The position numbers were made by a program, and so were the translations under genes. A stretch of DNA of 46,534 nucleotides. Source: Candidatus Abyssobacteria bacterium SURF_5 (GTDB lineage Bacteria > Abyssobacteria > SURF-5). This document shows positions 7,212-31,336 of the stretch, piece after piece. Numbering within the stretch: position 1 is the first letter of the stretch; every line of letters begins with the position of its first letter. Below the pieces are notes generated by a model that saw nothing but the letters and a program-made list of their open reading frames with translations, ran no database searches and had not been told where the DNA came from. Where the stretch lies: assembly GCA_003598085.1 (NCBI GenBank), contig QZKU01000091.1, forward strand, positions 1-46,534, written 5' to 3'.

Positions 7212-9749
7212 TCATTCAGCCTGCGGCTCGCCGTTTTCCTCGAAATCGGCTTCGTCGGCTCCCGGCGACTCCGATTCGGGCAGATTCGCGGCGGCCTCAT
7301 CGGCGAGAGCGTCCTCTTTCTCTTTCGGCATGACGACGGCGACGGCGACAAACGAATCGTCCTCCTGCAATCGGATGACGCGGACGCCCTGCGTGTTTCG
7401 CCCGATAACGGAGATATCGCTGACGGGCGTGCGGACGACCATCCCCCGGGATGAGACGCAAACGACCTCCTCGTTCTCGCGAACGGTGCGCATGCCGATG
7501 CACTTGCCGTTGCGGGCGGACGTCTTGATACTGATAATGCCTTTGCCGCCGCGGTGTTGCGAGCGGTACTCGTCGAAGTCGGTGCGCTTGCCGTATCCGT
7601 TTTCGGTCACCACCAGAATTGTGGCGTCGGGGATGACCTTTTCCATGCCGACGAGGCGGTCGCCCTCCTCCATGCGGATACCGATGACTCCCCTCGCGGT
7701 CCTGCCCATCGGGCGCACCTGCCGCTCGTTGAACCGGATGGCAAGTCCCTGCTCGGTCCCGAGCAGGATCTCGTCTTCTCCGCCGGTGAGCTTGACGTGG
7801 GTGAGCCGGTCGCCGTCATCGAGCGTAATGGCGATGATGCCGCCGGCGCGCGGGTTGCTGAAGGCCTCGAGCTCGGTCTTCTTGACGACGCCCTTTTCGG
7901 TCGCCATCATGATATAGCGGCTTTCCTCGAAGGATTTCACGCTGAGGAAGGCGGTGACGCTCTCGCCGTCCGCGAGATGGAGGATGTTGATGATCGCGCG
8001 TCCTTTCGAGTAGCGGCCGGCGCGCGGGATCTCGTGCACCTTCAGCCAGTGGACGCGTCCGCGGTCGGTGAAGAAGAGGATGTATTCATGCGTGGACGCG
8101 ATAAAGATGTGCTCGACGAAATCCTCTTCCTTCGTCTCCATGCCGGTCACGCCGACGCCGCCGCGGTGCTGTTTGCGGTACGTGCTCACCGGCAGGCGCT
8201 TGATGTAGCCGGCGTGCGAGATGGTGATGACCATGTCCTCCTGCGCGATGAAGTCCTCGACCTTGAATTCGGTCTCCTCGTCGAGGATATGGGTGCGGCG
8301 GGGATCGGAATACTTTTTCTTGATTTCCTCGAACTCGGCGCGGATGACGCCCATCAATACGCGCGGGCTCTCGAGGATCGAGCGCAGGTTCGCGATGGTT
8401 TTCAGAAGGTCCTCGTATTCGGCGTCGATTTTCTGGCGCTCGAGGCCGGTGAGCCGCTGCAGCCTCATGTCGAGGATCGCCTGCGCCTGCTTGTCGGTCA
8501 GGCCGAACTGCACCACCAGGGAGTTTCGCGCCTGTTCGGGCGTATGCGACTGGCGGATGGTGTTGATGACCTCGTCGATGTGGTCGAGCGCGATCTTGAG
8601 GCCCTCGAGGATGTGGGCGCGCTCCTCCGCTTTTCTCAGGTCGAACCGGGTGCGCCGGGTGACGATCTCAATGCGGTGATCGAGGTATTCCTGCAGCATG
8701 CGTCTGAGTCCGAGCACGCGCGGGCGGTTCTCGACCAAGGCGAGCATGATGATGCCGAAGCTGCTCTGCAGGGCGGTGTGCTTGTAGAGCTGGTTGAGGA
8801 TGACCTCGGCCACTTCGCCGCGCTTGACGTCGATGACGATGCGCATGCCTTCCTTGTCGCTCTCATCGCGGATATCGGAGATGCCCTCGATCTTCTTCTG
8901 CTGGGCGAGCGCGGCGATGCTCTCGATCAGCTTGCTCTTGTTGACCTGGTACGGAATCTCGTTGACGACGATCTTCTCTTTTCCGCTGGCGCTCGAGGGC
9001 TTCTCGATCGCGGCCTGCGCGCGGATGACCAGCTTGCCGCGGCCGGTGCGGTAGGCGTCGTGGATCCCTCTCGTACCGAGGATGACGCCGCCGGTCGGGA
9101 AATCGGGCCCCTTCACCACCTGCAGCAGGTCTGAAAGCTGCGCCTGTGGATTATCGATCAGCAGGCACAACGCGTCGATGATCTCGCCGAGATTGTGCGG
9201 CGGAATATTGGTGGCCATGCCGACCGCGATCCCGGAAGAGCCGTTGACCAGGAGGTTCGGGAGCGCCGACGGCAGGACCACCGGCTCCTGGAGCGACTCG
9301 TCGAAATTCGGCTGGAAGTTGACGGTCTCCTTGTCGATGTCGGCCAGCATCTCCTCGGCGAGCGCCGCGAGCCGGGCCTCGGTGTATCGCATGGCGGCCG
9401 CGTTGTCGCCGTCGATCGAGCCGAAGTTGCCCTGGCCATCAACCAGCGGATACCGCATGTTGAAATCCTGCGCCATGCGCACGAGCGCGTCGTAGATGGG
9501 GCTGTCGCCGTGCGGGTGATATTTACCCATCGTGTCGCCGACGATGCGCGCGCATTTGCGGTAGGCCCGGCGAGATGTAAGGCCGAGCTCGTTCATGGCG
9601 TACAGGATGCGGCGGTGAACCGGCTTGAGGCCGTCGCGCGCGTCGGGCAGAGCCCGGGCGACGATGACGCTCATCGCGTAGTCGATGAACGACTTCTTCA
9701 TCTCGGATTCGAGATTTACCGGAAATATCTTTTCGTTCTGCGTGTACAT
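7212..9749 (-). CDS. gyrA: DNA gyrase subunit A
   Basis: GyrA is the breakage-reunion subunit of DNA gyrase, which introduces negative supercoils as an A2B2 complex. The protein is 845 residues, normal length. The catalytic Tyr is Y122 (AAMRYTEAR). S83 and D87 of the quinolone-resistance region ([13 protein letters not shown]) are the quinolone-sensitive residues. The C-terminal beta-pinwheel carries the GyrA box QHRGGKG (residues about 734-740), which marks gyrase rather than topoisomerase IV. An acidic tail ends the protein, as in many gyrases. It lies 37 bp downstream of gyrB, so the two are probably cotranscribed. The AAGGA abuts the ATG at 9749 with almost no spacing, so the exact start is slightly uncertain. 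Confidence 0.98.
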
Positions 9750-9786
9750 TCCTTATGTTTCCATCAGCTCGTGAGGCGGGCGCACA

Positions 9787-12535
<2,749 letters not shown>

Positions 12536-12877
12536 TCATTCTCTTGCAAGTGAAACGGCAGGATTGATCTTGCAGATGATTTTGGCGATGGGGATCTCTC
12601 TGTATCGCTGACCGACTTTCTGAACAAGTTGCTCCTTGACAAGATCGATCTGCTGGCGCCAGACGGGACTGTCCACGTGTATGTAGAGTTTGCCGTCGGT
12701 TATTTTTGCGGGAGCGCAATGGAGGGCGGCGTCCTTTCCGACAATTTCGCTCCAGCAGGTTTGCAACTCGGCAACCTTTGCGCGCCGGGCAAAACTGCCG
12801 CCGGTGAAGAGCCGGCGCAGAACCTCATCGACTGGTTCTATTCCACAATCGGCGCGCGAGCGTTTATTCGTCTTCAT
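12536..12877 (-). CDS. DUF721/DciA-like protein
   Basis: This 113-residue protein belongs to the DUF721 family, whose proteobacterial members (DciA) bind the replicative helicase DnaB and help load it. The family core is visible: DEVLRRLFTGGSFARRAKVAELQ, then the conserved W of CWSEIVG, then LYIHVDSPVWRQQIDLVKEQLV (about 65-88), which forms the KH-like fold. The ATG at 12877 overlaps the dnaN stop by four bases (ATGA), so it is translationally coupled to dnaN. In many bacteria recF sits between dnaN and this gene; here the two are adjacent. A role at replication initiation is likely from family and position, and is inference for this organism. Confidence 0.88.
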   Translation of the reverse strand: MKTNKRSRADCGIEPVDEVLRRLFTGGSFARRAKVAELQTCWSEIVGKDAALHCAPAKITDGKLYIHVDSPVWRQQIDLVKEQLVQKVGQRYREIPIAKIICKINPAVSLARE

Positions 12878-13974
12878 AGCCTTACGGGCATCACGACATA
12901 CATGTAGTTGTCGTTGTCAAGCGGTTTGATCAGTCCGGAACTCTGCGCGTCTTTCAACTCGAGAGTGACTTTTTCCTCGTCGACTATCTTCAGCACGTCG
13001 AGCACGAATTGGGGATTGAACCCAATGCTAATGGTCTCTCCCTGGTATTCGACGTCGAACTCATCTTTTGCCTCGCCGACCTCCGGCGAATTCGTTGTCA
13101 CAACCATTTTGCCGGGGGATATCTCGAACTTGACCAAATTATAGCGGTCGGTGGTAAGCACCTGCGCCCGCTTTGTCGCAACCCCAAAGAGTTCCTTTTC
13201 GGCGATCACCTTGCGCTCATATCCGCGCGGGACAACCTGCTCGTAATTCGGGAAAACGGCGTCGATCAAATTCGAGATGACCAGCAGGTTGCCGAATTCA
13301 AACGCGATCTGGTTATCGGAGAGATAGATAGTGACATCGCCTTCATCGCTTAACAGCCGCTCCAGTTCGAGCACGGTTTTCCGCGGGATAATGTATGAAC
13401 TGTCGCCGTCGGGAGGATTCTCCAGGGTATGCCGCGCGTAGGAAAGGCGTCTTCCATCGGTGGAAACCAGTCTCAACTGACTCTGCGTCAGCGCAAGGAG
13501 CAGGCCGGTGATGTTTATCCTGTTCGGATCGATCGAGATGGAGAAACTCACCTTTTTCAACATCTCTTTCAGGAGAGCCTGCGGCAGGACAAAAGATTTA
13601 TCCCGTTTCACGTCCGGAGATTTCGGAAAGTCATCGGGCGGCATCCCCATGAGCTTATAGCGAACGACTCCGGAGGTGAGCGTAACTGCATTACTGTCGG
13701 AAGCGGTCATAGCGATCGTTCCCTGCGGCAGGATATTCACTACCTCATGCAGTTTCTTTGCGGGAAGCGTCACTGTTCCTTCCTGCTTCATCTCATCACA
13801 TTCGATAACGCATTCGATGCCGACTTCGAGATCGGTTGCCACCAGTTTAAGGCTGTTGTTTTTCGCGCTCATCAGGACGTACTGCAGCATCGGCAATGTG
13901 CTTCGAGTCGAGACAACACTCTGAACGTTTCCGATCGCATCTCGCAGTTGATCTCTTGCAATGGCCAGTTTCAT
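12874..13974 (-). CDS. dnaN: DNA polymerase III subunit beta (sliding clamp)
   Basis: DnaN forms the ring-shaped dimeric clamp that tethers polymerase III to DNA. The protein is 366 residues, the usual length, with the three-fold repeated clamp domain and the typical N-terminus MKLAIARDQLRDAI. The end reads NDNYMYVVMPVRL, the conserved C-terminal peptide of clamps (compare MPMRL in E. coli). I chose the ATG at 13974 because GGGAGGA lies 5 nt upstream; a longer reading frame exists but starts without a ribosome site. It lies 354 bp downstream of dnaA, with DnaA boxes in the gap, and overlaps the DUF721 gene by 4 bp. Confidence 0.98.
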   Translation of the reverse strand: MKLAIARDQLRDAIGNVQSVVSTRSTLPMLQYVLMSAKNNSLKLVATDLEVGIECVIECDEMKQEGTVTLPAKKLHEVVNILPQGTIAMTASDSNAVTLTSGVVRYKLMGMPPDDFPKSPDVKRDKSFVLPQALLKEMLKKVSFSISIDPNRINITGLLLALTQSQLRLVSTDGRRLSYARHTLENPPDGDSSYIIPRKTVLELERLLSDEGDVTIYLSDNQIAFEFGNLLVISNLIDAVFPNYEQVVPRGYERKVIAEKELFGVATKRAQVLTTDRYNLVKFEISPGKMVVTTNSPEVGEAKDEFDVEYQGETISIGFNPQFVLDVLKIVDEEKVTLELKDAQSSGLIKPLDNDNYMYVVMPVRL

Positions 13975-14328
13975 ACAATCCTCCCGCCTCTCCCCAAGCA
14001 AGCTCCGAACGAGTCAAACTTTCTTCTTATGCTCTTCATACTATGAGATAATAAAAGGCAGTCGCCGCAGGAGTAGTAAGGCGAAATCTGTGGAAAGCTC
14101 TTGTTTTCCCCATCGCTGCGGCACGAACCGGTGTCGACAACCTGCTGAAACTCACGCTCCAATTATCAACAAGATCAACATTATAGTGGGAACGATCGAC
14201 TTTATCAAGAATTCGTCAACAGTTTACCACAAAGTACCAACATCGCGTCAACAGATTTTTCGGGAGATTATCCTCTTGTTCTTTTGGCATACATGAACCG
14301 CAAATATGAAGAGCGTGGGAGAAATCGT
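13975..14328. other. dnaA-dnaN intergenic region with DnaA boxes (second origin half)
   Basis: This 354-bp region contains no gene. It has a DnaA box TTATCAACA at 14163-14171, a reverse-oriented box TGTGGAAAG at 14089-14097, and box-like GATCAACA, CGTCAACA and TTTATCAAG elements between 14173 and 14255. The stretch at about 14036-14056 is AT-rich (ACTATGAGATAATAAAAGG). Boxes on both sides of dnaA are the layout of bipartite origins such as that of Bacillus subtilis, where the unwinding element lies between dnaA and dnaN. Unwinding here is inference. Confidence 0.65.
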
Positions 14329-15660
14329 CTACGTGCGAAGCTGTTTGTTGATCGACTCCACGTCGGTGGCGAACCGCGAATTCGTTTTCATCATCTCGCG
14401 GACTTTCTTGCACGCGTGCAAAACCGTCGAGTGGTCGCGGCCTCCAAACGAATCGCCGATGTCGATCAGCGAGGCCTCAGTCAGCTCGCGTGCGAGATAC
14501 ATGCCCACCTGGCGTGCGAGCGCAATCGTTTTCGATCGTTTCGGCGAAACGAGATCCGAAAGCTTGACGTTATAATACGACGCGGATGTCTTCTGGATGA
14601 ACTCGACCGTGATCTGTTTTCCTTCGGCCTGTTCGAGTACGTCCTTCAGCGCCAGTTGCGCTGTCTCGATCGAGAGCGGACAATTATGGGCGCGGGCATA
14701 GCCGATGACGCGATTGAACGTGCCCTCGAGTTCCCGGATATTGGCCTTCACCAGGTTCGCAATGAAGAACAGCATGTCCGACGGACATTTTAAATGGTTC
14801 TTCTCGGATTTTTTCTGCAGGATCGCGATGCGGGTTTCGAGATCGGGCGCCTGAATATCCGTCACCAGCCCCCATTCGAATCTGCTCACCAGCCGCTCCT
14901 CGAGCGTCGGGATGTCTTTTGGGGGCCGGTCCGACGACAGGACGATCTGTTTGAATGCGTCGTGCAGCGTATTGAACGTGTGGAAGAACTCCTCCTGCGT
15001 CGCATCCTTGCCGGCGAGAAAATGGATATCGTCGATCAGCAGGACGTCAACTGTCCGGTACTTGTTTCTGAAACTTATCTGCGAGCGCTGCTGGATCGCC
15101 GAGATCAACTCGTTGGTGAATTCCTCGGAAGTTATATACAGCACCTTCAGCTTTTCCTGCCGCAGAACCTCGTGCCCGATCGCCTGCATCAGGTGCGTCT
15201 TCCCGAGCCCCGCTCCACCGTAGATAAAGAGCGGATTGTATGCGCGGGCGGGCGTCTCGCACACCGCCTTCGCGGCGGCGTGGGCGAATCTGTTGGAAGG
15301 CCCGATTACGAATTCCTCGAATGTATATTTTGAATTCAGATGAGGAAACGAGGAAATGCGGGACTGCGGTTCGGCCGGGTCCTCCGACCGGATTTCGCAG
15401 GTCATCTCTTCCTGAAGCACGTCGTTCTGCCGGAATGTGACACCGTGAAATTCGGGACTTAAGGAGTCTCCAATCGATTTGATCAGTTCCGAATATCGCT
15501 CGGCGATCCAGTTCCCGGTAAACTCATTGGGCACGAGAACCGCGAGGTGCCCTTTCTCATATGAATGGAACCGGGTCCATGTCAGCCAAGCCTCGAATGT
15601 CCGCGGGTCTATCCGCTGGCGCAGTACCTGGCGTATCTGATCCCAGAGATTGATACTCAT
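14329..15660 (-). CDS. dnaA: Chromosomal replication initiator protein DnaA
   Basis: DnaA is the AAA+ protein that binds DnaA boxes and opens the origin. The protein is 443 residues, full length. Domain I (about 1-75, [21 protein letters not shown]) is followed by a short linker. The AAA+ domain has Walker [10 protein letters not shown] (148-156) and Walker B LLIDDIHF (207-214). The C-terminal helix-turn-helix ends with the DnaA signature [16 protein letters not shown] use the ATG at 15660, preceded by a purine-rich GAGGGGGGA; an upstream in-frame extension lacks a ribosome site and would enter the DnaA-box cluster. It is the first gene of the minus-strand replication cluster. Autoregulation through the adjacent boxes is expected from other bacteria. 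Confidence 0.98.
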
Positions 15661-15820
15661 GGAGAAATCCCCCCTCTGCAATGCAAAAATTATCCACACG
15701 GAACGGAAGTCGAAAAAGGCTCTTTATTCGCTGAATTACTCGGATCAGTGCGGATTCTCCAAGACTTATCAACAAAAAGTCGGACTTTTCCACAGACTTA
15801 TCAACATCCTGTGGAAAGAG
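15661..15820. other. oriC-like DnaA-box cluster upstream of dnaA
   Basis: A perfect consensus box TTATCCACA lies at 15690-15698. TTATCAACA boxes lie at 15766-15774 and 15798-15806, TTTTCCACA at 15786-15794 and reverse TGTGGAAAG at 15810-15818. Five boxes in 130 bp immediately upstream of dnaA is strong evidence for an origin or at least a DnaA-controlled promoter. The rest of the gap to 16155 shows no gene. Confidence 0.8.
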
Positions 15821-17107: not shown

Positions 17108-17124
17108 GGCCTCCACCTTCGACT

Positions 17125-17219
17125 GCAGGCGCGGGTTTCAACCCCGCCCAAACATCGAACCGTGCAGTTGTCGCACGCACATCCATCAAATTCGGGCGAA
17201 CCTTTCAGACACGCCACGG
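17125..17219. repeat. REP family A, copy 1, at the 3' side of the RAYT gene
   Basis: GCGCGGGTTTCAACCCCGCCC (a palindrome) is followed by a spacer with CGTGCAGTTG and ATCCATCAAATT. The same spacer, nearly base for base, follows the palindrome at 17817 on the other side of the transposase gene. The two copies are direct repeats bracketing the gene. Confidence 0.8.
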
Positions 17220-17798
17220 TTCGTCCGCAGGGCCAGTTTTCGAAGGTGCTCCTGTATTAGGTTTCGGGTCTGCCGCAAACGGGTTTTCTCGGTCATATTC
17301 CCATTGGATAGGATTATTCACGACATACTCCCGAATGCGGTTCAGTGATTCTTCTGTGCGTATAATGTGCTCATAGTAACCGCGCTGCCAGAGAGGGGTG
17401 CCGGATGTGCTCCGTGAAGCATTAATACGGCGGGCGGAAAATGTTTTTAATGCCCTCACGATCTCGGACAGGCCATGCATCCGGATCGATATCGAACCCG
17501 CGCCCGCAGTTGTCCGAACATCTTGTGGATGCAGTAGTATGACGATGCCGTGAACGTGATTCGGCATCACAACGAAGACATCCAAACTCACGTGCGGGTA
17601 GTGGCGAGGCAAGGCAAGCCATTCTGCAAGAACCAATTGGCCAGCCTGATTCAATCGCATCTCGCTGTCCACAACATTGCCAAAAAGAAACTTCCTCTTG
17701 TAGGTGCAAAGGGTGATGAAGTAGGCGCCGGCCTGTGTGTAATCATATTCAGGAAGACGAATCGGCCGGCGCCGGAATTGATGCCGGTGGTCATTCAT
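17205..17798 (-). CDS. REP-associated tyrosine transposase (RAYT, Y1/HUH family)
   Basis: RAYTs are single-copy, domesticated relatives of IS200/IS605 transposases that cut and move REP palindromes. This 197-residue protein has the HUH motif in VVMPNHVHGIVIL (about residue 80) and the catalytic-Tyr segment REYVVNNPIQW (about 166-176). It also has TQAGAYFITLCTYKRKFLFG near the N-terminus, all typical of the family. I start it at the ATG of MNDHRHQF at 17798; an upstream in-frame extension only translates a REP palindrome. The gene is bracketed by direct copies of REP family A (17125 and 17817), and further copies occur at 18042, 21593 and 28822. It probably mobilises these non-autonomous palindromes; that is inference. 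Confidence 0.92.
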   Translation of the reverse strand: MNDHRHQFRRRPIRLPEYDYTQAGAYFITLCTYKRKFLFGNVVDSEMRLNQAGQLVLAEWLALPRHYPHVSLDVFVVMPNHVHGIVILLHPQDVRTTAGAGSISIRMHGLSEIVRALKTFSARRINASRSTSGTPLWQRGYYEHIIRTEESLNRIREYVVNNPIQWEYDRENPFAADPKPNTGAPSKTGPADEPWRV

Positions 17799-17816
17799 GC
17801 AGCCCCCCCGTTTTCT

Positions 17817-17907
17817 GTAGGGGCGGGTTTGAAACCCGCCCAATCATAGAATCGTACAGTTGCCGCACATCCATCAAATTAAGGGCAGGTTTGAAACCTG
17901 CCCCTAC
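17817..17907. repeat. REP family A, copy 2: two palindromes in inverted arrangement (BIME-like)
   Basis: GTAGGGGCGGGTTTGAAACC (17817 onward) and its inverted partner ending GAAACCTGCCCCTAC (to 17907) flank a 40-bp spacer. This matches the BIME layout of paired REPs that HUH transposases recognise. It lies directly upstream of the RAYT start. Confidence 0.85.
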
Positions 17908-18041
17908 ATTGTAACCAGATATTCAGGTTCATATCCCAGCCGGTCTGCAATCAAAATCTCTGGCAAGTAGAAACGATAGGATCGTTCTGAAGATACTTCC
18001 CCTCCTATCACCTGCCATCACAACCGTTCCAAGACGAATCT

Positions 18042-18078
18042 GCGCAGGCGCGGGTTTAAGACCCGCCCGCGCCGCTAC
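18042..18078. repeat. REP family A, copy 3, overlapping the MATE stop codon
   Basis: GCAGGCGCGGGTTTAAGACC and the pairing CGGGTC/CCCGCC sequence form a palindrome that ends inside the last codons of the MATE gene. The transposed repeat may act as a 3'-end hairpin for that transcript. Confidence 0.7.
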
Positions 18079-19433
18079 ACCTTCACCGATTTCCATCTGC
18101 CGGAGAGGAATCGCAGAAACAGCACGAACGCCTTTATGTAGTGGTCGGCGAGGATGATCAGCCACACCCAGGTGATGCTGAGGCCGAGCACGTGCGCCGC
18201 TAAGAACGCCAGCGGCAGGCGGATCAGAAACATCCCGATAAACGAGGAATACAACGGCCAGCGCGTGTCGGCGGCGCCGATCAGCGCGCCCGAGAGCGCG
18301 AAATGGATCGCCATCGCGGGCTGGCACAGCGCGAGCACGCGGACGAACAGTGCCGTATAATCGACCACACCGGCCTCATTCACGTAAATCAGAGCAGTCG
18401 GCTTCGCCGCCACGAACAGAATGATCCCGATTGCCGCCATCACCCACACCGCGAGACGAGTGCATTCCCATCCCTGTGAGGCCGCGGCGGAAGGCTCCTT
18501 CGCGCCGAGCGACTGCCCGACAAGCGCCGAGGCCGCCACCGAGAAACCGAAGCCCGGCATGAACGAGAGCGACATGATATTGACGCCGATCATGTATGCG
18601 GCGAGCGGACCGGTGCCATAGCCGGTGATTATCGTCATGTACCACAGGTAACCGAGTTGGATGAGGCCGTGCTCAACCGCCGAGGGCGACCCGATCCGGA
18701 GGATTCTGGCCATCAGATCGCGCTCCATCACGAGGAGCTTCCGCGGGAGGGAAAGCATCAGTTTTCCCGTGAGGGAGAGGTAAACGAAAGCGGCGGCCTC
18801 GAGCGTGAACGCTATGATGGAAGCGATTCCCGCTCCGAGCACCCCCAACTCCGGCATTCCGAGTTTCCCGAAGATCAGCCCGTAATTGAGGATCACATTC
18901 ACCACATTCGCGCCGACGCTCACGAAAAGCGGTGTCTTGGTGTCGCCGGCCCCCCGAAGAGCCGCCGCGAAGACAAGCGCGACCACGAGGAAAAGCGTTC
19001 CCGAAACGACAACTCGGAGATACGGAACGCCGACCGCCGTTACGACCGGATCGGCTCCGAACAATCGGAACAACGAGGCGCTTCCGACAAATGTCGGGAC
19101 GGTGACAACGGCGGCAAAAACAGTTGACAGCAGCAGCGAGTGCCCGAGAACCGCGTCGGCGCGTTCCTTCTCCTGCGCGCCAATGTGGCGCGCGACCAGC
19201 GCGATTGTGCCAGTTGTGACGGCAAGCGTCAGCGCCATCACCATGTTGAACATCTGCCCGCTCACGCCCACGGCCGCCACAGCCGCCGATCCCAGCCTTC
19301 CCACCATGATCATGTCGGCAATCCAGACGAATGTGAGCAGGAGATTGTTGAGGATGACCGGCCACGCGAGCGAGAAGATCTTCCTTCTCAGAGAGGGTGC
19401 CGCCGTTGGGACAGACACGGTGCCGGTGGTCAT
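18075..19433 (-). CDS. MATE family multidrug efflux transporter
   Basis: This is a Na+- or H+-coupled exporter of the multidrug and toxic compound extrusion family. It has 452 residues and twelve hydrophobic segments in two six-helix halves. Family marks include the N-terminal LAWPVILNNLLLTF, ADMIMVGRLGSAAVAAVG in helix 2 and MPGFGFSVAASALVGQSLGA at the start of the second half. The start ATG at 19433 overlaps the uvrC stop by four bases (ATGA), so the two are translationally coupled. Coupling of DNA repair with an exporter may reflect a shared response to genotoxic compounds (inference). The stop codon lies within a REP palindrome. Substrate is unknown. Confidence 0.93.
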   Translation of the reverse strand: MTTGTVSVPTAAPSLRRKIFSLAWPVILNNLLLTFVWIADMIMVGRLGSAAVAAVGVSGQMFNMVMALTLAVTTGTIALVARHIGAQEKERADAVLGHSLLLSTVFAAVVTVPTFVGSASLFRLFGADPVVTAVGVPYLRVVVSGTLFLVVALVFAAALRGAGDTKTPLFVSVGANVVNVILNYGLIFGKLGMPELGVLGAGIASIIAFTLEAAAFVYLSLTGKLMLSLPRKLLVMERDLMARILRIGSPSAVEHGLIQLGYLWYMTIITGYGTGPLAAYMIGVNIMSLSFMPGFGFSVAASALVGQSLGAKEPSAAASQGWECTRLAVWVMAAIGIILFVAAKPTALIYVNEAGVVDYTALFVRVLALCQPAMAIHFALSGALIGAADTRWPLYSSFIGMFLIRLPLAFLAAHVLGLSITWVWLIILADHYIKAFVLFLRFLSGRWKSVKV

Positions 19434-21337
19434 TGATCGGAGCCTGCGGCGGCGCTCTGTGTGGCGGAAAGCACGAGCTTTACTTCTCGGGCAAGCCGGA
19501 GCGGAATCCCTGCCGCCGCGGCGATTTCTTCTTCGGACGCCTCAGCGGTTTTGCGGACGCTGCCGAAATGATTGAGGAGCAGGGTCCGCCGCCGCGGCCC
19601 GATCCCTCTGACCTCATCGAGGATCGAGCGGGTATGCGCGCGCGCGCGGATTTTTTTGTGGTACGAGATTGCGAACCGGTGCGCCTCATCGCGGATATGC
19701 TGCACCAGGCGCAGAGCGGGCGAGCCCGGCCGCAAAATGATGGCGTCTTTGCGGTGGGGAATATATATCTTGTCGGCCTCCTTGGTAGCGACCCCGGCAT
19801 TGCGGCGATAGAGGATGCGCTCCTTGGCGATGCCGATTGCGTCCTGCTCGATGATCTGCAAATCGTCGAGGACGCTGAGAGCGACGTTCAGCTGGCCCTT
19901 GCCGCCGTCGACCACGATGAGCGAAGGCATCGGGCCCTCTTCGATCGCGCGGGACAGGCGGCGCGTGAGCACTTCGCGCATCATTGCGTAATCGTCGGCG
20001 CCCTCGACCGTGCGCACCTTGTAGCGGCGATAGTCGGACTTCTTCGGTTTGCCGTCCTCGAAGACGACCATCGAGCCGACCGCAAGCCGCCCGGAGATAT
20101 TCGAGATATCGAACGCCTCGATGCGCTCCGGTCGCTTGTGCAGCGAAAGCGCCTGCTGGAGTTTCTCGAGCACATCGACGGAGGCCATCTCCGCCCGCTG
20201 GTGTTCTTCATACACCGTTTTCGCGTTCATCTGCGCCATGTTCAACAGGTGCTTCTTATCGCCGCGCTGCGGGACTATCACCGATACGCGCTCGCCCTTC
20301 TTTTCGGAGAGCCACTGCTCGATGGCTTCGCTGTTCTCGGGCTCGACCGGGAGCACGACTTCCTTGGGCACGGTGTGCCCGCCCGAATAGAATTGGGTGA
20401 GCATCGAGCCGAGCGCCTCCTCGAACGGCGCCTTGATTTCCGAAAAATGATATGGCATGCTGCCGACGATCTTCCCGCCTCGCACCGCCAGCACAACGAC
20501 GCCGAGACTGCCGGTCTCAGTGAGACTGCCGGTCTCAGTGAGGCTTCCGGTCTCGCGGTGGACGCCGAAGAAGTCACGGTCGATCCGGTCGGATGCGGCA
20601 ACCTTCTGGCGCTCGATCGTTTTCTCGACCGCCTGGATCTGATCTCGGTAGCGGGCGGCCACCTCGAACTGCAGGGCATCCGACGCCTCCTGCATACGAG
20701 TCTGAAGCGTCTCGAGCAGCTCCTGGTTCTTTCCCTGCAGGAACGCGATCACATTCTGCACAAGCTGGGCGTAGGTTTTCTTGTCGACCTTGCCGCAGCA
20801 CGGTCCCATGCATTTGTTCATGCCGTGATAGATGCACGGGCGCTGGCGCCGCCCGAACGTCTCGTTAGAGCATTTGCGCAGCCCGAAGTAGTTATTGATG
20901 ACCCGGTACGTCTCGCGGGCGGCGTAGGCCGATGAATAGGGGCCGAAGTACATTGCGCCGTCGCGCTTGACCGTGCGCGTTATCAGGAGGCGCGGATACT
21001 CATCCTGCAGCGTAAGCTTGAGCCGGAGAAAACTCTTGTCGTCCTTCAGCCGGAGGTTGTACTTCGGCCTGTGTTCCTTGATCGCGCTGTCTTCCAGGAT
21101 GATGGCTTCCTTCTCGGTGTCGGTGACGATGACGTCGACATCGGCCACGTGCGCCGCCAGGAACGGCGACCACACGCGCCCATCGTCGCCCTTCTGGAAG
21201 TACGAGCGAACGCGCTTACGCAGGCTCTTCGCCTTGCCGACGTAGATCACTTTGCCCCGCTCGTTTTTCATCAGGTATACGCCGGGCTGGTCGGGGAAAT
21301 TCCTGATTTTTTCGTCTATTTGGGCTGATATTTTCAT
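19430..21337 (-). CDS. uvrC: Excinuclease ABC subunit C
   Basis: UvrC makes both incisions in nucleotide excision repair after UvrAB marks damage. The 635-residue protein has the GIY-YIG nuclease near the N-terminus (GVYLMKNERGKVIYVGKAKS) and a UVR UvrB-binding helix pair around residue 210. The RNase H-like nuclease is recognisable by EAFDISNISGRLAVGSMVVF, and a C-terminal helix-hairpin-helix pair by VRGIGPRRRTLLLNHFGSV. I chose the ATG at 21337, where the family N-terminus begins; its ribosome site is weak, and the upstream extension looks non-coding. Between the UVR and RNase H domains lies an unusual in-frame tandem repeat (TETGSL). The MATE gene follows with a 4-bp overlap. Confidence 0.97.
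   Translation of the reverse strand: MKISAQIDEKIRNFPDQPGVYLMKNERGKVIYVGKAKSLRKRVRSYFQKGDDGRVWSPFLAAHVADVDVIVTDTEKEAIILEDSAIKEHRPKYNLRLKDDKSFLRLKLTLQDEYPRLLITRTVKRDGAMYFGPYSSAYAARETYRVINNYFGLRKCSNETFGRRQRPCIYHGMNKCMGPCCGKVDKKTYAQLVQNVIAFLQGKNQELLETLQTRMQEASDALQFEVAARYRDQIQAVEKTIERQKVAASDRIDRDFFGVHRETGSLTETGSLTETGSLGVVVLAVRGGKIVGSMPYHFSEIKAPFEEALGSMLTQFYSGGHTVPKEVVLPVEPENSEAIEQWLSEKKGERVSVIVPQRGDKKHLLNMAQMNAKTVYEEHQRAEMASVDVLEKLQQALSLHKRPERIEAFDISNISGRLAVGSMVVFEDGKPKKSDYRRYKVRTVEGADDYAMMREVLTRRLSRAIEEGPMPSLIVVDGGKGQLNVALSVLDDLQIIEQDAIGIAKERILYRRNAGVATKEADKIYIPHRKDAIILRPGSPALRLVQHIRDEAHRFAISYHKKIRARAHTRSILDEVRGIGPRRRTLLLNHFGSVRKTAEASEEEIAAAAGIPLRLAREVKLVLSATQSAAAGSDQ
20504..20557. repeat. 18-bp tandem repeat (3 units) inside uvrC
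   Basis: The unit GAGACTGCCGGTCTCAGT occurs twice without mismatch at 20504-20521 and 20522-20539. A third, degenerate unit (five differences) is at 20540-20557. It encodes ETGSL-TETGSL-TETGSL just after the conserved DFFGVHR, where other UvrC proteins have only a short turn. The length is a multiple of three, so copy-number change would keep the frame. Confidence 0.9.
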
Positions 21338-21668
21338 GATAAAAACTCGCGAATATCTTTCTCTGTCCTCATTATACCCCATGGCAAAGACGACGGGCAA
21401 GCAAAGATTCGGCGCCTGGCGCTCATGTAACCCCTTTACAATCTGGATGTTGCAGGTATGAAGGCGAGTCCCGCTTCTATTCACGCAAGGGACGGGAAAA
21501 AGCCTGAAGGGTCTTCTCTGTCTAACCGCAAAGGCGCAGAGGCGGAAAGATATGGCGAGAAAAAAACGAATCTGTTCCTGATGATTGTGTTGTAGGGGCG
21601 GGTTTGAAACCCGCCACTACGGAGGTATGGATTACTGCGGCCGCCAATTGGTCGCGCTTCCGCCGCCG
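21338..21668. other. 331-bp gap between uvrC and citrate synthase, carrying repeats
   Basis: There is no gene here. It holds a family C repeat (ACCGCAAAGGCGCAGAGGCG, about 21524-21545) and REP family A copy 4 (21593-21621). The minus-strand uvrC promoter should lie here, but I see no convincing pair of boxes. Confidence 0.5.
21593..21621. repeat. REP family A, copy 4
   Basis: GTAGGGGCGGGTTTGAAACC followed by CGCCACTAC forms the same palindrome as the copy beside the RAYT start, with one change in the right arm. It lies 48 bp past the citrate synthase stop codon, a typical REP position. Confidence 0.85.
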
Positions 21669-22793
21669 CTATCGATTCTGGAGCGGGATGAGTTTCTCGT
21701 TCATGCGCCCCTTGTAATTGGAGATGGGCCGAATCAGCCGGTTATCTGCCTGCTGTTCGAGGATGTGAGCGGTCCAGCCTGCCATGCGGCTCATCGCGAA
21801 GATGGCGGTGTATAGATCGAGCGGGATGCCCATACAGTAATAGACAGATGCCGAATAGAAATCGACGTTAGGGTCCATTCCTTTCTCGTGGCGCATGATA
21901 TCTTCGATCCTGGTGAGCATGCTGTACCAGAGCGGGCCGCACCCGTGTTCGCTCATCCATTTGGAGTAGGCCTTCAGGATTTTCGCACGCGGGTCCATCG
22001 TCTTGTAGACCCTGTGGCCGATGCCCATGACTCTGCCCTTTTTTTCGAGGAGAGTCTGGATGTACTCGTCGACTTTTTCGAGGCTGCCGATTTCGAGCAG
22101 CATCTGCATGACGCGCATGTTAGCGCCGCCATGGAGCGGCCCTTTCAAGGTTCCAATCGCGGAGGTGGCCCCGCTGTAGATATCGGCGAGCGTGCTGACG
22201 GTCACGCGCGCGGCGAAGGTGGATGCATTCAGGTCATGATCGGCATGCAGCACCAGGCACACGTCGAGCACGCGGTTGAGCACCTGCATCATCTCTTGCC
22301 CTGCCAGCATATAGAGGAAATTTTCAGCAAGGCTCTTGTCTTTGAGCGGGGAGACGATCGGCAGGCCGTTCCGAACGCGATTGAAGGCGGCAATGATGGT
22401 CGGCGTCTTGGCCACGAGGCGCGCCGCCTTCCGCAGGTTCGCCTCGCGCGAGGCGTCTTCGGTCTCGGGATCGTGCAGCGCCAGTGCGCTCACGGCCGTG
22501 CGCAGGATGTCCATCGGATGTGCGTCGACCGGCGCCGCGGTGATAAAATCGATAATCGGCTGAGGCAGGTCCCGCTCGGCCGCAAGCTGCTTTTGGAAGG
22601 CCTCCAGCTCGTCCCGGTTCGGCAGCTTACCGTACCATAGAAGGTAAACGATTTCTTCGAAGCTGGCGCCGTCGGCCAGCTCATTTATGGGATAGCCCCG
22701 ATAGGCGAGTATCCCCCTGTTTCCATCTATGTAACAGATCTGAGAATCGGCAACGACGACGCCTTCGAGTCCTTTAACCGCAGTAGTGGTCAT
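21669..22793 (-). CDS. Citrate synthase (type II-like short form)
   Basis: This enzyme condenses oxaloacetate with acetyl-CoA (or, in 2-methylcitrate synthases, propionyl-CoA). The 374-residue length fits the short bacterial form. Catalytic blocks are visible: the substrate-binding HADHDLNAST (about 185), the catalytic His of GPLHGGAN (about 220), GIGHRVYKTMDPRA (about 260) and the catalytic Asp of NVDFYSASVYY (about 312). I chose ATG 22793 because GGGAGGAA lies just upstream; a six-residue longer form starts inside that site. It stands alone, with uvrC 331 bp downstream. Sequence inspection cannot separate citrate from 2-methylcitrate synthase; no prpB or prpD neighbour is present, which favours citrate synthase. 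Confidence 0.95.
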   Translation of the reverse strand: MTTTAVKGLEGVVVADSQICYIDGNRGILAYRGYPINELADGASFEEIVYLLWYGKLPNRDELEAFQKQLAAERDLPQPIIDFITAAPVDAHPMDILRTAVSALALHDPETEDASREANLRKAARLVAKTPTIIAAFNRVRNGLPIVSPLKDKSLAENFLYMLAGQEMMQVLNRVLDVCLVLHADHDLNASTFAARVTVSTLADIYSGATSAIGTLKGPLHGGANMRVMQMLLEIGSLEKVDEYIQTLLEKKGRVMGIGHRVYKTMDPRAKILKAYSKWMSEHGCGPLWYSMLTRIEDIMRHEKGMDPNVDFYSASVYYCMGIPLDLYTAIFAMSRMAGWTAHILEQQADNRLIRPISNYKGRMNEKLIPLQNR

Positions 22794-23196
22794 TGGTTCC
22801 TCCCATTTCATTCGAGCATGTTCCGGTTAACGAGGGACGCGAGCGTCTGGAGATATGAAGCTCTACCTTTCCCTTCGAACAATTTTGGCATTCAATTTGA
22901 TATCTGTAAAGGCCTTTTAGGCCTTTCCGGTATTGGGAGCAGGGTTTCTGGTGGGGACTTTGTAAAAAATCGGCGGCGGGAAAAGTTCACTATTCAAGGT
23001 GTTGCGCCATTCCGAGATGCCAAAAATCATGATCGGTGTGGCCGGGCATCGCACTGGACAGCGAATTTCGGCGGAGTGAGTGTCGGGAAAATTCCCTGTC
23101 CAGATCGACCGACCGGCAATACCCATTCGATACAACTTCATAGAGAGGAACGGTCTGCACCGCAGACTTAACGCAAGAAGGGATTATGCGGATCGG
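22794..23196. other. About 400-bp gap with no recognisable gene
   Basis: I examined both strands and see no reading frame with a ribosome site, no RNA gene and no strong hairpin. It may be decayed DNA or the upstream control region of citrate synthase. Confidence 0.4.
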
Positions 23197-28821: not shown

Positions 28822-28850
28822 GTAGGGGCGGGTTTCAAACCCGCCCTTAC
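28822..28850. repeat. REP family A, copy 5, supplying the acylase stop codon
   Basis: GTAGGGGCGGGTTTCAAACC and CGCCCTTAC form the REP palindrome. The right end, TTA at 28847-28849, is the stop codon of the penicillin-acylase gene on the minus strand. The last residues of that protein are therefore next to, or derived from, the repeat. Confidence 0.8.
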
Positions 28851-31336
28851 GGGGCAGCCGTCGGTACTAATGGTATCAGCACCAGTTTGTCTTCACACTC
28901 TCCCGTCTCCTCTGCGTTTTTCCACAGAGGAAGCGATTCTCCCTTGAGCCAGAGCGGCAATTGATCCGCATAGTGGCGGCTGAACCGATTTTCGGACTGG
29001 CCGAGCGTGATGACCATTCGCGCCGCGTCCACGTCTCCGAAGTCCATGACTGTTCTCATTGACGGGCCGGCGATTACCGGATAGGGCTTTTGGTCCAGAT
29101 CGAAGTAATAGTTGCCCGGGTTGACAGAATAATTTTCGCCGCCCAACTGATACGGGCCGAGGTTCAGCAGCTTCGCCGCAATTCCGGAGCGCCCCAGCGG
29201 ATGCGAGAAGGTGAGCGTGTGAAGTTGTCCCCATTTCCACCCGTCGGGGGGGCGGCGATAGAAGCGCCTCAATGATTTTACTGCTTCGCCCGCGCATTCG
29301 GCAATCACCTGGTCCTGCGACTCCACACTTTCTGTCGAGGGATCATCAAACCATATCGCGAGCGCGATATTCCCCAACATGTCGTCGAGGTCCGCTACTG
29401 ACCGATAAATCCGCCTCCACTGGCCGGGCTTCATTCTGCCATCGATGATCTCTCTCGCAAGCGTCGCATAACTCTCAAAGAAAACCGCGGCGCCGGCGCT
29501 GTCACGGTCGGCCATCAGGTCCCATTTCTTCAAAAGATCCACCGCCTGCTTGAAGTCCGGATCGTCCGTTGGATACCTCTCGCACGCCTCCACGAAGATG
29601 TCCCGCACGTGCGCCGCCTGTTTCGAGTAGACGTCCATCTGGATGCGCTGCATATCTTCCCCAGAGAGTTTCTCCTGCGCGAGGATGAGCTCCTCTATTC
29701 GCTCTGCCCGGTATGGATTGGCGTAACGCGTCGAGATGAGATACGGGTAATCGTCCGGAGTCACCCGGTTGTTCGCGGTGACGATATATCCGCTCGATGG
29801 GTTGAGGAGGCGCGGCATCTCGTCGTAGGGGATGTAGCCTGCCCACTCGTATTCGTTCAGCCAGCCCGGCGCCGGCAGCATCCCGCGGCCCTTTCTTCTG
29901 ATCGGAATCATGCCGGCAAGCTGATACCCGATATTGCCGTTCGCATCCGCGTACACCCAATTCCACACCGGTGTGGCCGTGTATCGCAGGGCCTCGTGGA
30001 AATCATCCCAATTCGCCGCCTTGAGCATCAGGCGCGAAGTGATGAGCGAGTCGGAAACTTCGTACCCCGCCCAATGAAGCGAGAGCGGCATGCCGGCTTG
30101 AACCGGCGGGTCCGAGATCTCATTGATGATCGGGCCGCGGATGCTGAGCCGAATCTGCTTTTCCACTGCTTTCTGTTCGCCATTTTCCCGATAGTGGATG
30201 GTCTCCTTGATGATGTCGAACGGCTGATACGAGCCGTCGTTGTAGTATTCGTTCGGGTTTTCAGGATTCAGCTTCTCGATGAAGAGGTCCTGCGTGTCGG
30301 CGCCGGTGGTCGTGTCGCCCCAGGCGATGCGGCGGTTGTGACCCATCACAATCATTGGAACGCCACTTGTCATGATGCCTGCCGCCTCGATGCCGGGAGC
30401 CGACAGGCGCGCCATATACCATATCGACGGCAAGGTATGCGGGATGTGAGGGTCATTGGCCAGCATCGGTTTGCCGGAGCGGCTCCTTTGTCCGCTCACT
30501 GCCCATGCGTTGCTCGCGAATACCTGGCTTCTGTCCGTGAATAATCCCATGTGCGCCGCCGTTTGTATCGGCGTCGCTTCCTTGTCCTCGAACTTGATAA
30601 GACTATAATCAAACTCCGGCGGAATGATTGTCTTGTCTATGCGAGCAGGCACGATGTCGTACTGTTTCTCAGTTTCCGGGATGATGCTGGGGCCGCGCTC
30701 CCTGTGGGTCTCGATCAGCTCGAGCGCCGCATCGGCCCCCATGTCATGCACGAGGCCGGCCATCGCGAGCTCGGACTCCCAATTGAATGTGACCATCCAC
30801 TGCTGCCACATGAGCACGCCGTACACGTTCTCGGGCGACCACAATTCAGGCTTGTATCTCAACAGCAGAAACTCAAACGGCAGGCGGTCAGGGTATCTTT
30901 CTATATAGTCATTTATGCCGTTGACATAGGCGCGGCAGATCGTCTTCGACTCTTCGCCCGCGTTTGCCCAAATTTTTTCCGCCAGCCGCTGAAAGCCGAG
31001 CACCCGGTGCCTGTGGTCGACCGGGATCAGCTCGGGCCCGAATATCTCGGCGAGGCGTCCCTGCGAGAGGCGCCGGAAGATATCCAGTTGCCAGAGCCTG
31101 TCCTGCGCGTTCACGAACCCGAGCGCGTAATAGAGATCATTCTCCGATTGGGCCTGTATATGAGGTATGCCGTAGCTGTCGCGGCTGACTTCGACGCCGT
31201 GCTCGAGGCCGGGGAGTACAATCTCGCCACTGGTCTGCGGCAGGCTTCTACGGATCAGACGCGCGGCCCATGTCCCGCCAACCGCGACGACAACCAGGAA
31301 TGTTGCTGCGACTATGAAGACGATTTTTCTTCTCAT
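28847..31336 (-). CDS. Penicillin acylase family N-terminal nucleophile hydrolase
   Basis: This protein belongs to the penicillin amidase/acyl-homoserine-lactone acylase family. These Ntn-hydrolases are exported as one chain and cut themselves to expose a catalytic Ser. The 829-residue precursor has an N-terminal hydrophobic segment (residues 5-25) for export. The alpha chain contains RDSYGIPHIQAQSENDLYYALGF. S275 in VFASNAWAVSG is the predicted nucleophile at the new N-terminus of the beta chain, followed by MLANDPHIPH. Preferred amide substrates vary from beta-lactams to N-acyl homoserine lactones, and this cannot be resolved here. The ATG at 31336 follows AAAGAG. It is 20 bp downstream of the small membrane protein and may be cotranscribed. 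Confidence 0.92.
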   Translation of the reverse strand: MRRKIVFIVAATFLVVVAVGGTWAARLIRRSLPQTSGEIVLPGLEHGVEVSRDSYGIPHIQAQSENDLYYALGFVNAQDRLWQLDIFRRLSQGRLAEIFGPELIPVDHRHRVLGFQRLAEKIWANAGEESKTICRAYVNGINDYIERYPDRLPFEFLLLRYKPELWSPENVYGVLMWQQWMVTFNWESELAMAGLVHDMGADAALELIETHRERGPSIIPETEKQYDIVPARIDKTIIPPEFDYSLIKFEDKEATPIQTAAHMGLFTDRSQVFASNAWAVSGQRSRSGKPMLANDPHIPHTLPSIWYMARLSAPGIEAAGIMTSGVPMIVMGHNRRIAWGDTTTGADTQDLFIEKLNPENPNEYYNDGSYQPFDIIKETIHYRENGEQKAVEKQIRLSIRGPIINEISDPPVQAGMPLSLHWAGYEVSDSLITSRLMLKAANWDDFHEALRYTATPVWNWVYADANGNIGYQLAGMIPIRRKGRGMLPAPGWLNEYEWAGYIPYDEMPRLLNPSSGYIVTANNRVTPDDYPYLISTRYANPYRAERIEELILAQEKLSGEDMQRIQMDVYSKQAAHVRDIFVEACERYPTDDPDFKQAVDLLKKWDLMADRDSAGAAVFFESYATLAREIIDGRMKPGQWRRIYRSVADLDDMLGNIALAIWFDDPSTESVESQDQVIAECAGEAVKSLRRFYRRPPDGWKWGQLHTLTFSHPLGRSGIAAKLLNLGPYQLGGENYSVNPGNYYFDLDQKPYPVIAGPSMRTVMDFGDVDAARMVITLGQSENRFSRHYADQLPLWLKGESLPLWKNAEETGECEDKLVLIPLVPTAAP

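Follow-up and report, generated by a model that had tools for sequence, protein, structure and literature searches.

The RAYT (TnpAREP) proteins of subclass 2.4 have been described as often carrying a REP inserted in frame between the HUH and Tyr motifs, an arrangement that is predominant but not universal (PMC6006769). RAYT-REP coevolution as such is already known (PMC2817692), and helix alpha3 of the E. coli TnpAREP contacts the REP stem (PMC8266576). The discrimination by a RAYT of its own REP has been studied in three proteins, all of groups 2 and 3; the S. maltophilia RAYT hardly cut a GCAG tag at all, and the E. coli RAYT did not tolerate it (PMC8266576).

The locus analysed here is ordinary in kind, in that in-frame REPs and GTAG tags are already known for subclass 2.4. 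It carries a known REP-RAYT system into a little-sampled lineage, with one intact predicted substrate beside the gene. The window, i.e. the whole stretch of 46,534 nucleotides that was analysed, is the entire contig C91 of the Candidatus Abyssobacteria bacterium SURF_5 assembly (5.1 Mb, 145 contigs). We interpret the locus, with a probability of roughly 0.87, as a REPtron consisting of a domesticated single-strand Y1 transposase of RAYT/TnpAREP subclass 2.4 and its cognate REP. The features of the gene are as follows:

17208..17798, minus strand: RAYT/TnpAREP coding sequence of 197 aa, stop codon 17205-17207 (PF01797, NF047646, fold)
17550..17561, minus strand: HUH motif NHVH, residues 80-83, invariant in the aligned relatives except for the hydrophobic residue
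17412..17471, minus strand: codons of helix 110-129 (LSEIVRALKTFSARRINASR), the predicted REP-recognition helix (AlphaFold2 model; covariation with REP stems)
17325..17327, minus strand: predicted catalytic Tyr158 in YVVNNP; Y158, N162 and P163 invariant in the alignment

The protein had been read from the sequence as an intact Y1/HUH protein with the motifs NHVH and YVVNNP. This was confirmed by a minus-strand frame open across all 197 aa, in which every invariant residue of the alignment is retained, including the WQ motif (W137 Q138), and by a score of 29.9 bits against PF01797 (cut-off 23). The NCBIfam model NF047646 REP_Tyr_transpos gave 70.3 bits, which is under its curated cut-off of 80, and NF033573, consulted for membership of the IS200/IS605 transposases, gave 21.8 bits (cut-off 55). 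In the AlphaFold2 model, residues 110-129 form a single helix (block pLDDT 84-96), and the top PDB fold match was 4er8, the E. coli TnpAREP with a REP hairpin (E 5.6e-6). When a sequence profile was compared with the PDB, the HUH and Tyr regions aligned to 4er8 and helix 3 did not, so that the E. coli residue K82 has no mapped position in the window RAYT. Residue 117 is Leu, and Phe or Tyr occupies the equivalent position in 111 of 115 relatives.

The origin-proximal position that had been proposed for the gene was also borne out. The genes gyrA, gyrB, dnaN and dnaA are consecutive on the minus strand (7212-15806), and the region 15690-15806, which contains four DnaA-box-like sites, is very likely oriC; the RAYT 3' end is about 1.4 kb away. 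On the other side, a uvrC-like gene (19430-21484, minus strand) contains a short in-frame tandem repeat, HRETGSLTETGSLTETGSLG.

The REPs at the gene are the following:

17816..17908, plus strand: intact head-to-head REP pair (REPIN/BIME-like unit) directly upstream of the RAYT start codon, GTAG outward
17817..17841, plus strand: REP with GTAG tag, GTAGGGGCGGGTTTGAAACCCGCCC
17883..17907, minus strand: opposed REP with GTAG tag, GTAGGGGCAGGTTTCAAACCTGCCC as read on the minus strand
17123..17215, plus strand: decayed REP-spacer-REP copy with the tag GCAG, overlapping the RAYT 3' end
17494..17507, minus strand: eroded half REP in the RAYT gene (GCGGGCGCGGGTTC), within the HUH-to-helix linker
18044..18068, plus strand: single REP, GCAG variant

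The two opposed palindromes that the sequence-only reading saw in the 17817 copy do form a head-to-head pair with GTAG on each outer end. Its arms are 88% complementary with 41 nt between them, and the opposed REP has an A-T in place of a G-C pair, the change having occurred in both stem arms together. The REPs that flank the gene are repeated in direct orientation, at a distance of 692 bp. The claim that near-identical REP plus spacer units bracket the gene was thus correct as to the direct copies but not as to the near-identity, since the left and right units share about 80% identity across 61 nt without gaps and the left one is decayed. With gaps, the similarity continues through the spacer and second REP, and the left unit accordingly represents the entire REP-spacer-REP arrangement in decayed form. 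At 17125 and 18044 the tag is GCAG in place of GTAG, and both of these copies carry the GCAGGCGCGGGTTT variant, whose exact form occurs at these two positions only, genome-wide. In view of the behaviour of GCAG in the two studied RAYTs, these copies would be expected to make poor substrates and, as the remaining copies at the locus are GCAG-tagged, the pair at 17816-17908 is the only predicted good substrate there. The half REP, which the sequence-only reading had overlooked, matches the local GCAG variant at 12 of 14 positions, a value reached by 3 of 3000 shuffled linkers and by 8 of 1000 shuffled genes, these frequencies being optimistic because the variant was picked after inspection of the locus. 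It occupies the spot where relatives have a complete in-frame REP. Altogether, three of the four gene-adjacent REPs differ from the consensus in stem or tag.

Six palindromes of the form GGCGGGTTTNAAACCCGCC (at most 3 mismatches) were found in the contig, at 17130, 17822, 17884, 18049, 21597 and 28827, whereas 0.02 were expected from shuffles and none of 100 shuffles attained six. Four of the six lie within about 0.3 kb of the RAYT gene ends; the other two belong to these REPs:

21592..21620, plus strand: REP of the same family as the RAYT-flanking REPs, 49 bp from the 3' end of a citrate synthase-like ORF (21669-22811, minus strand)
28822..28850, plus strand: another REP of this family, which overlaps the stop codon of a penicillin amidase-like ORF (28847-31336, minus strand)

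The further copies previously noted near 18042, 21593 and 28822 were hence all recovered, and the genome-wide count that had been proposed as a check shows that copies extend beyond the locus. The palindrome is present at 31 places (at most 2 mismatches) on about 20 contigs, 20 of them exact, with 0 matches to the reversed-pattern control. The copies are concentrated in the window, with 6 of the 31 within 0.9% of the genome (P 6e-7), and most of them bear the GTAG tag on one side only. The other genomic copies examined were singletons or direct tandem pairs, which leaves 17816-17908 as the one clear opposed pair among the copies examined. Rfam gave 0 matches in the window.

The window RAYT likely seeded the 31 REP copies, and by analogy with the E. 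coli TnpAREP it would bind, cut and copy the REP. The REP strand, when single-stranded (e.g. on the lagging strand), would fold into a hairpin, the GTAG foot of which would be held near the catalytic site while the stem would be read by helix 110-129. Tyr158 would then cut beside the tag, and the REP or the opposed REP pair could be joined elsewhere. Present activity of the window RAYT is uncertain. The few diverged copies, the off-consensus REPs, the half-lost in-gene REP and Leu117 suggest that the system may be decaying, and it is possible, although we consider it doubtful, that the RAYT formerly spread the REP and no longer does so, its ORF being not yet broken and its REPs drifting. Such a fossil state would be in agreement with GCAG in place of GTAG at 17125 and 18044, with the decay of the left unit and the erosion of half of the in-gene REP, with Leu at a position where relatives have Phe or Tyr, and with a total of just 31 copies compared with about 90 of another GTAG-type family. 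The open 197-aa frame with all its invariant residues, the 20 exact palindromes among the 31 and the preservation of both tags in the upstream pair argue against it. This alternative disputes present activity and is compatible with the family assignment of the REPtron.

The genomes available for comparison included two from the same family (G001 and G002, of other genera), the next nearest being from the same domain only. Neither G001 nor G002 contained a copy of the window REP, and G001 had no RAYT at E<=1e-3; the REP is therefore not equally abundant in relatives without this RAYT. Dispersed in its own genome and absent from both same-family genomes, it behaves as the cognate REP of the RAYT, as the sequence-only reading had it. 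Similarly, among 52 genomes in which the RAYTs were read, exact GGCGGGTTTNAAACCCGCC occurred in 8 of 9 with the helix EI[VI]RxFKxF, compared with 3 of 43 without it (P 2e-6), these counts taking in REPs at or inside RAYT genes; in one of the eight (G289) all three copies lie around its own RAYT. The exception within the helix class, G204, has GGGTTCC REPs. G033 contains 27 exact copies of GGCGGGTTTNAAACCCGCC and no RAYT over the threshold; it has a broken RAYT remnant (L247, G033:C62:1-1500) with the window helix class, HHGLPEIVRARKTFSSRRIN. In a looser count, 11 of 70 genomes that have any such RAYT contained the REP, as did 8 of 220 that lack one (P 0.001). The possibility that selection maintains the palindromes as hairpin terminators or mRNA-stabilising structures, with no relation to the RAYT, has in its favour the copies at or beside gene ends (21592 and 28822) and the perfect stems, but a specific stem with a GTAG tag is common to unrelated phyla in step with one RAYT helix class, and none is present in the same-family genomes, which need terminators too. 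We consider this explanation very improbable.

The window genome has two RAYTs with two different REPs. The second RAYT (C43) is 47% identical to the window RAYT and has a different helix, of the ACGGCAT type; its REP GTAGGGGCATCCCGCGCTTCGCGGGA occurs at 13 places in the window genome and was found in neither G001 nor G002. The tag GTAGGGGC is common to both RAYTs. That this tag is shared within one genome might suggest that C43 mobilises the window REP family, but this is the least probable explanation, as C43 is accompanied by flanking and in-gene REPs of its own and has the ACGGCAT-type helix; C43 itself was among the training genes, but L035 and L191 have the same helix and REP type.

The G002 RAYT also differs in its helix (SVGRIIQAFKSITTVRYAHG) and carries GGCGAACCTTGTGTTCGCC within the gene. 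Copies of this REP are dispersed in G002 (36+25) and in G001 (11+10), and the window genome has none. REP families thus change along with the RAYT, yet REPs can be kept where there is no RAYT, as in G001. A commoner GTAG-type palindrome, GTAGG(T/G)(G/C)CGAATT(C/T)ATTCG, was counted 43+47 times in the window genome, 51+46 times in G001 and 113+130 times in G002 (examples in the window genome, G000: L248:247-281 and L248:292-356, C31). No RAYT carrying this family was found in the window genome, and none of its cores were found in the window. The two other GTAG-type families of the genome show that a REP family can be paired with another RAYT, or with none that was identified. A third Y1_Tnp gene (C66) was placed outside subclass 2.4 by its motifs NHVH/WEGRF/YVERNP, and no such REP was seen there. 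The region L248 (C31:24000-38000) consists of mosaic repeats, with several REP types and CACCAAGACACCAAG-like repeats in both orientations.

The relation between REP and protein could be followed across phyla. Around 109 RAYT ORFs of many phyla, the density of the tag GTAGGGGC was 2.4/kb in the gene, 2.2/kb in the flanks and 0.27/kb farther away, and the tag was in frame inside 70 of the 109 ORFs, mainly between HUH and Tyr. The linkage of REP and protein within a single gene allows REP stems to be set against individual segments of the protein. In a Mantel test on 67 genes, REP distance correlated with distance in a 21-residue helix segment (r 0.46), which none of 2000 permutations equalled (largest 0.10), whereas r was 0.09 for the N-terminal 70 residues and -0.08 for the C-terminal part. 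The partial correlation for the helix given the N- and C-terminal segments was 0.44, and a 15-residue helix segment with near-duplicates removed (65 genes) gave 0.37. The nearest segment was then used to predict the 7 stem bases of held-out genes that shared no more than 85% identity with the training genes. Stem identity (n=50) was 0.67 from the nearest helix, compared with 0.47 from the N-terminus, 0.42 from the C-terminus and 0.37 at random (P 6e-6). REPs outside the coding sequence are free of coding confounding, and the prediction was therefore checked there too (n=32), giving 0.61 for the helix, 0.42 for the N-terminus, 0.38 for the C-terminus and 0.40 at random (P 2e-5). These helix P values rest on the segment controls, with no tree correction beyond them, and the sets include related genes. 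The nearest neighbour by whole protein predicted in-gene REPs at 0.76 versus 0.69 for the helix, a value confounded by its inclusion of both the helix and the REP-coded linker, which is why segments were compared instead.

The strongest covarying positions across 115 genes correspond to window residues 112, 115, 116, 119 and 120, and a weaker signal came from the segment that immediately precedes the HUH strand. The covarying positions showed no significant helical periodicity (523 of 5000 permutations), and covariation along one face of the helix is accordingly not claimed. For the window helix (LSEIVRALKTFSARRIN), the nearest training genes have GGGTTT or AGGTTC stems. Three tandem RAYT genes were observed at L157 (G204:C2:2299470-2303015), two with the helix MLLPKIIGYFK and AATTCAT REPs and one with GLPEIIRQFK and GGGTTCC REPs, which makes L157 a natural single-locus comparison of helix types.

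It is probable that the REP choice of subclass 2.4 is set by one short exchangeable helix (residues ~112-120; mainly E112, R115, A116, T119 and F120), that the REP sequence can be read from the protein across phyla, and that helix exchange, not whole-protein descent, explains REP turnover. Neither a localisation of RAYT-REP coevolution to one helix across phyla nor a helix-level code for subclass 2.4 was found in the literature searched, which excluded most subscription journals and all bioRxiv preprints. The location of REPs at or within the genes of subclass 2.4 means that genomes yield many protein-hairpin pairs, and the in-gene REPs would, if the code is true, constitute a natural table of such pairs. 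This wider result counts more than the locus itself, since the natural pairs point to one helix.

By its motifs, length, fold and associated flanking REPs, the window protein fits TnpAREP/RAYT subclass 2.4 (Bertels group 4). It shares with that subclass (Quentin et al. 2018, PMC6006769) the motifs NHVH (NH[IFV]H), WQ and Y-x-x-NNP, a length of about 195 aa (median near 194, compared with 197 here), GT[AG]G-tagged REPs within about 1 kb (GTAG at 17817 and 17907, with GCAG in two more), a scattered distribution among phyla with low copy number and low identity (two genes, 47%, in the window genome) and dispersal of the cognate REP in the genome (31 places). It differs in the Tyr motif, which is YIxNNP there and YVVNNP here (I to V), and in having just an eroded half of the in-frame REP of its relatives. 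At 17816-17908, two REPs face each other across a spacer and bear GTAG at their outer ends, as in a REPIN. In the GTAG REPtrons (Di Nocera et al. 2013, PMC3733652), GTAG REPs likewise flank the RAYT, head-head dimers have their tags outside and a REP end overlaps the stop codon, whereas the window genome has about 30 copies in total and one clear opposed pair among those examined. The IS200/IS605 TnpA proteins (IS608, ISDra2) have the same Y1/HUH fold and are hairpin-binding single-strand transposases, but they have a Y...Q motif where the window RAYT has Y...NP (YVVNNP), and multiple identical copies of the gene are absent from the window genome. The E. coli TnpAREP (PDB 4er8) is the best structural match and its REP has a GTAG tag, although it belongs to group 2, is 19% identical and has a bulged REP stem, in contrast to the perfect stems found here.
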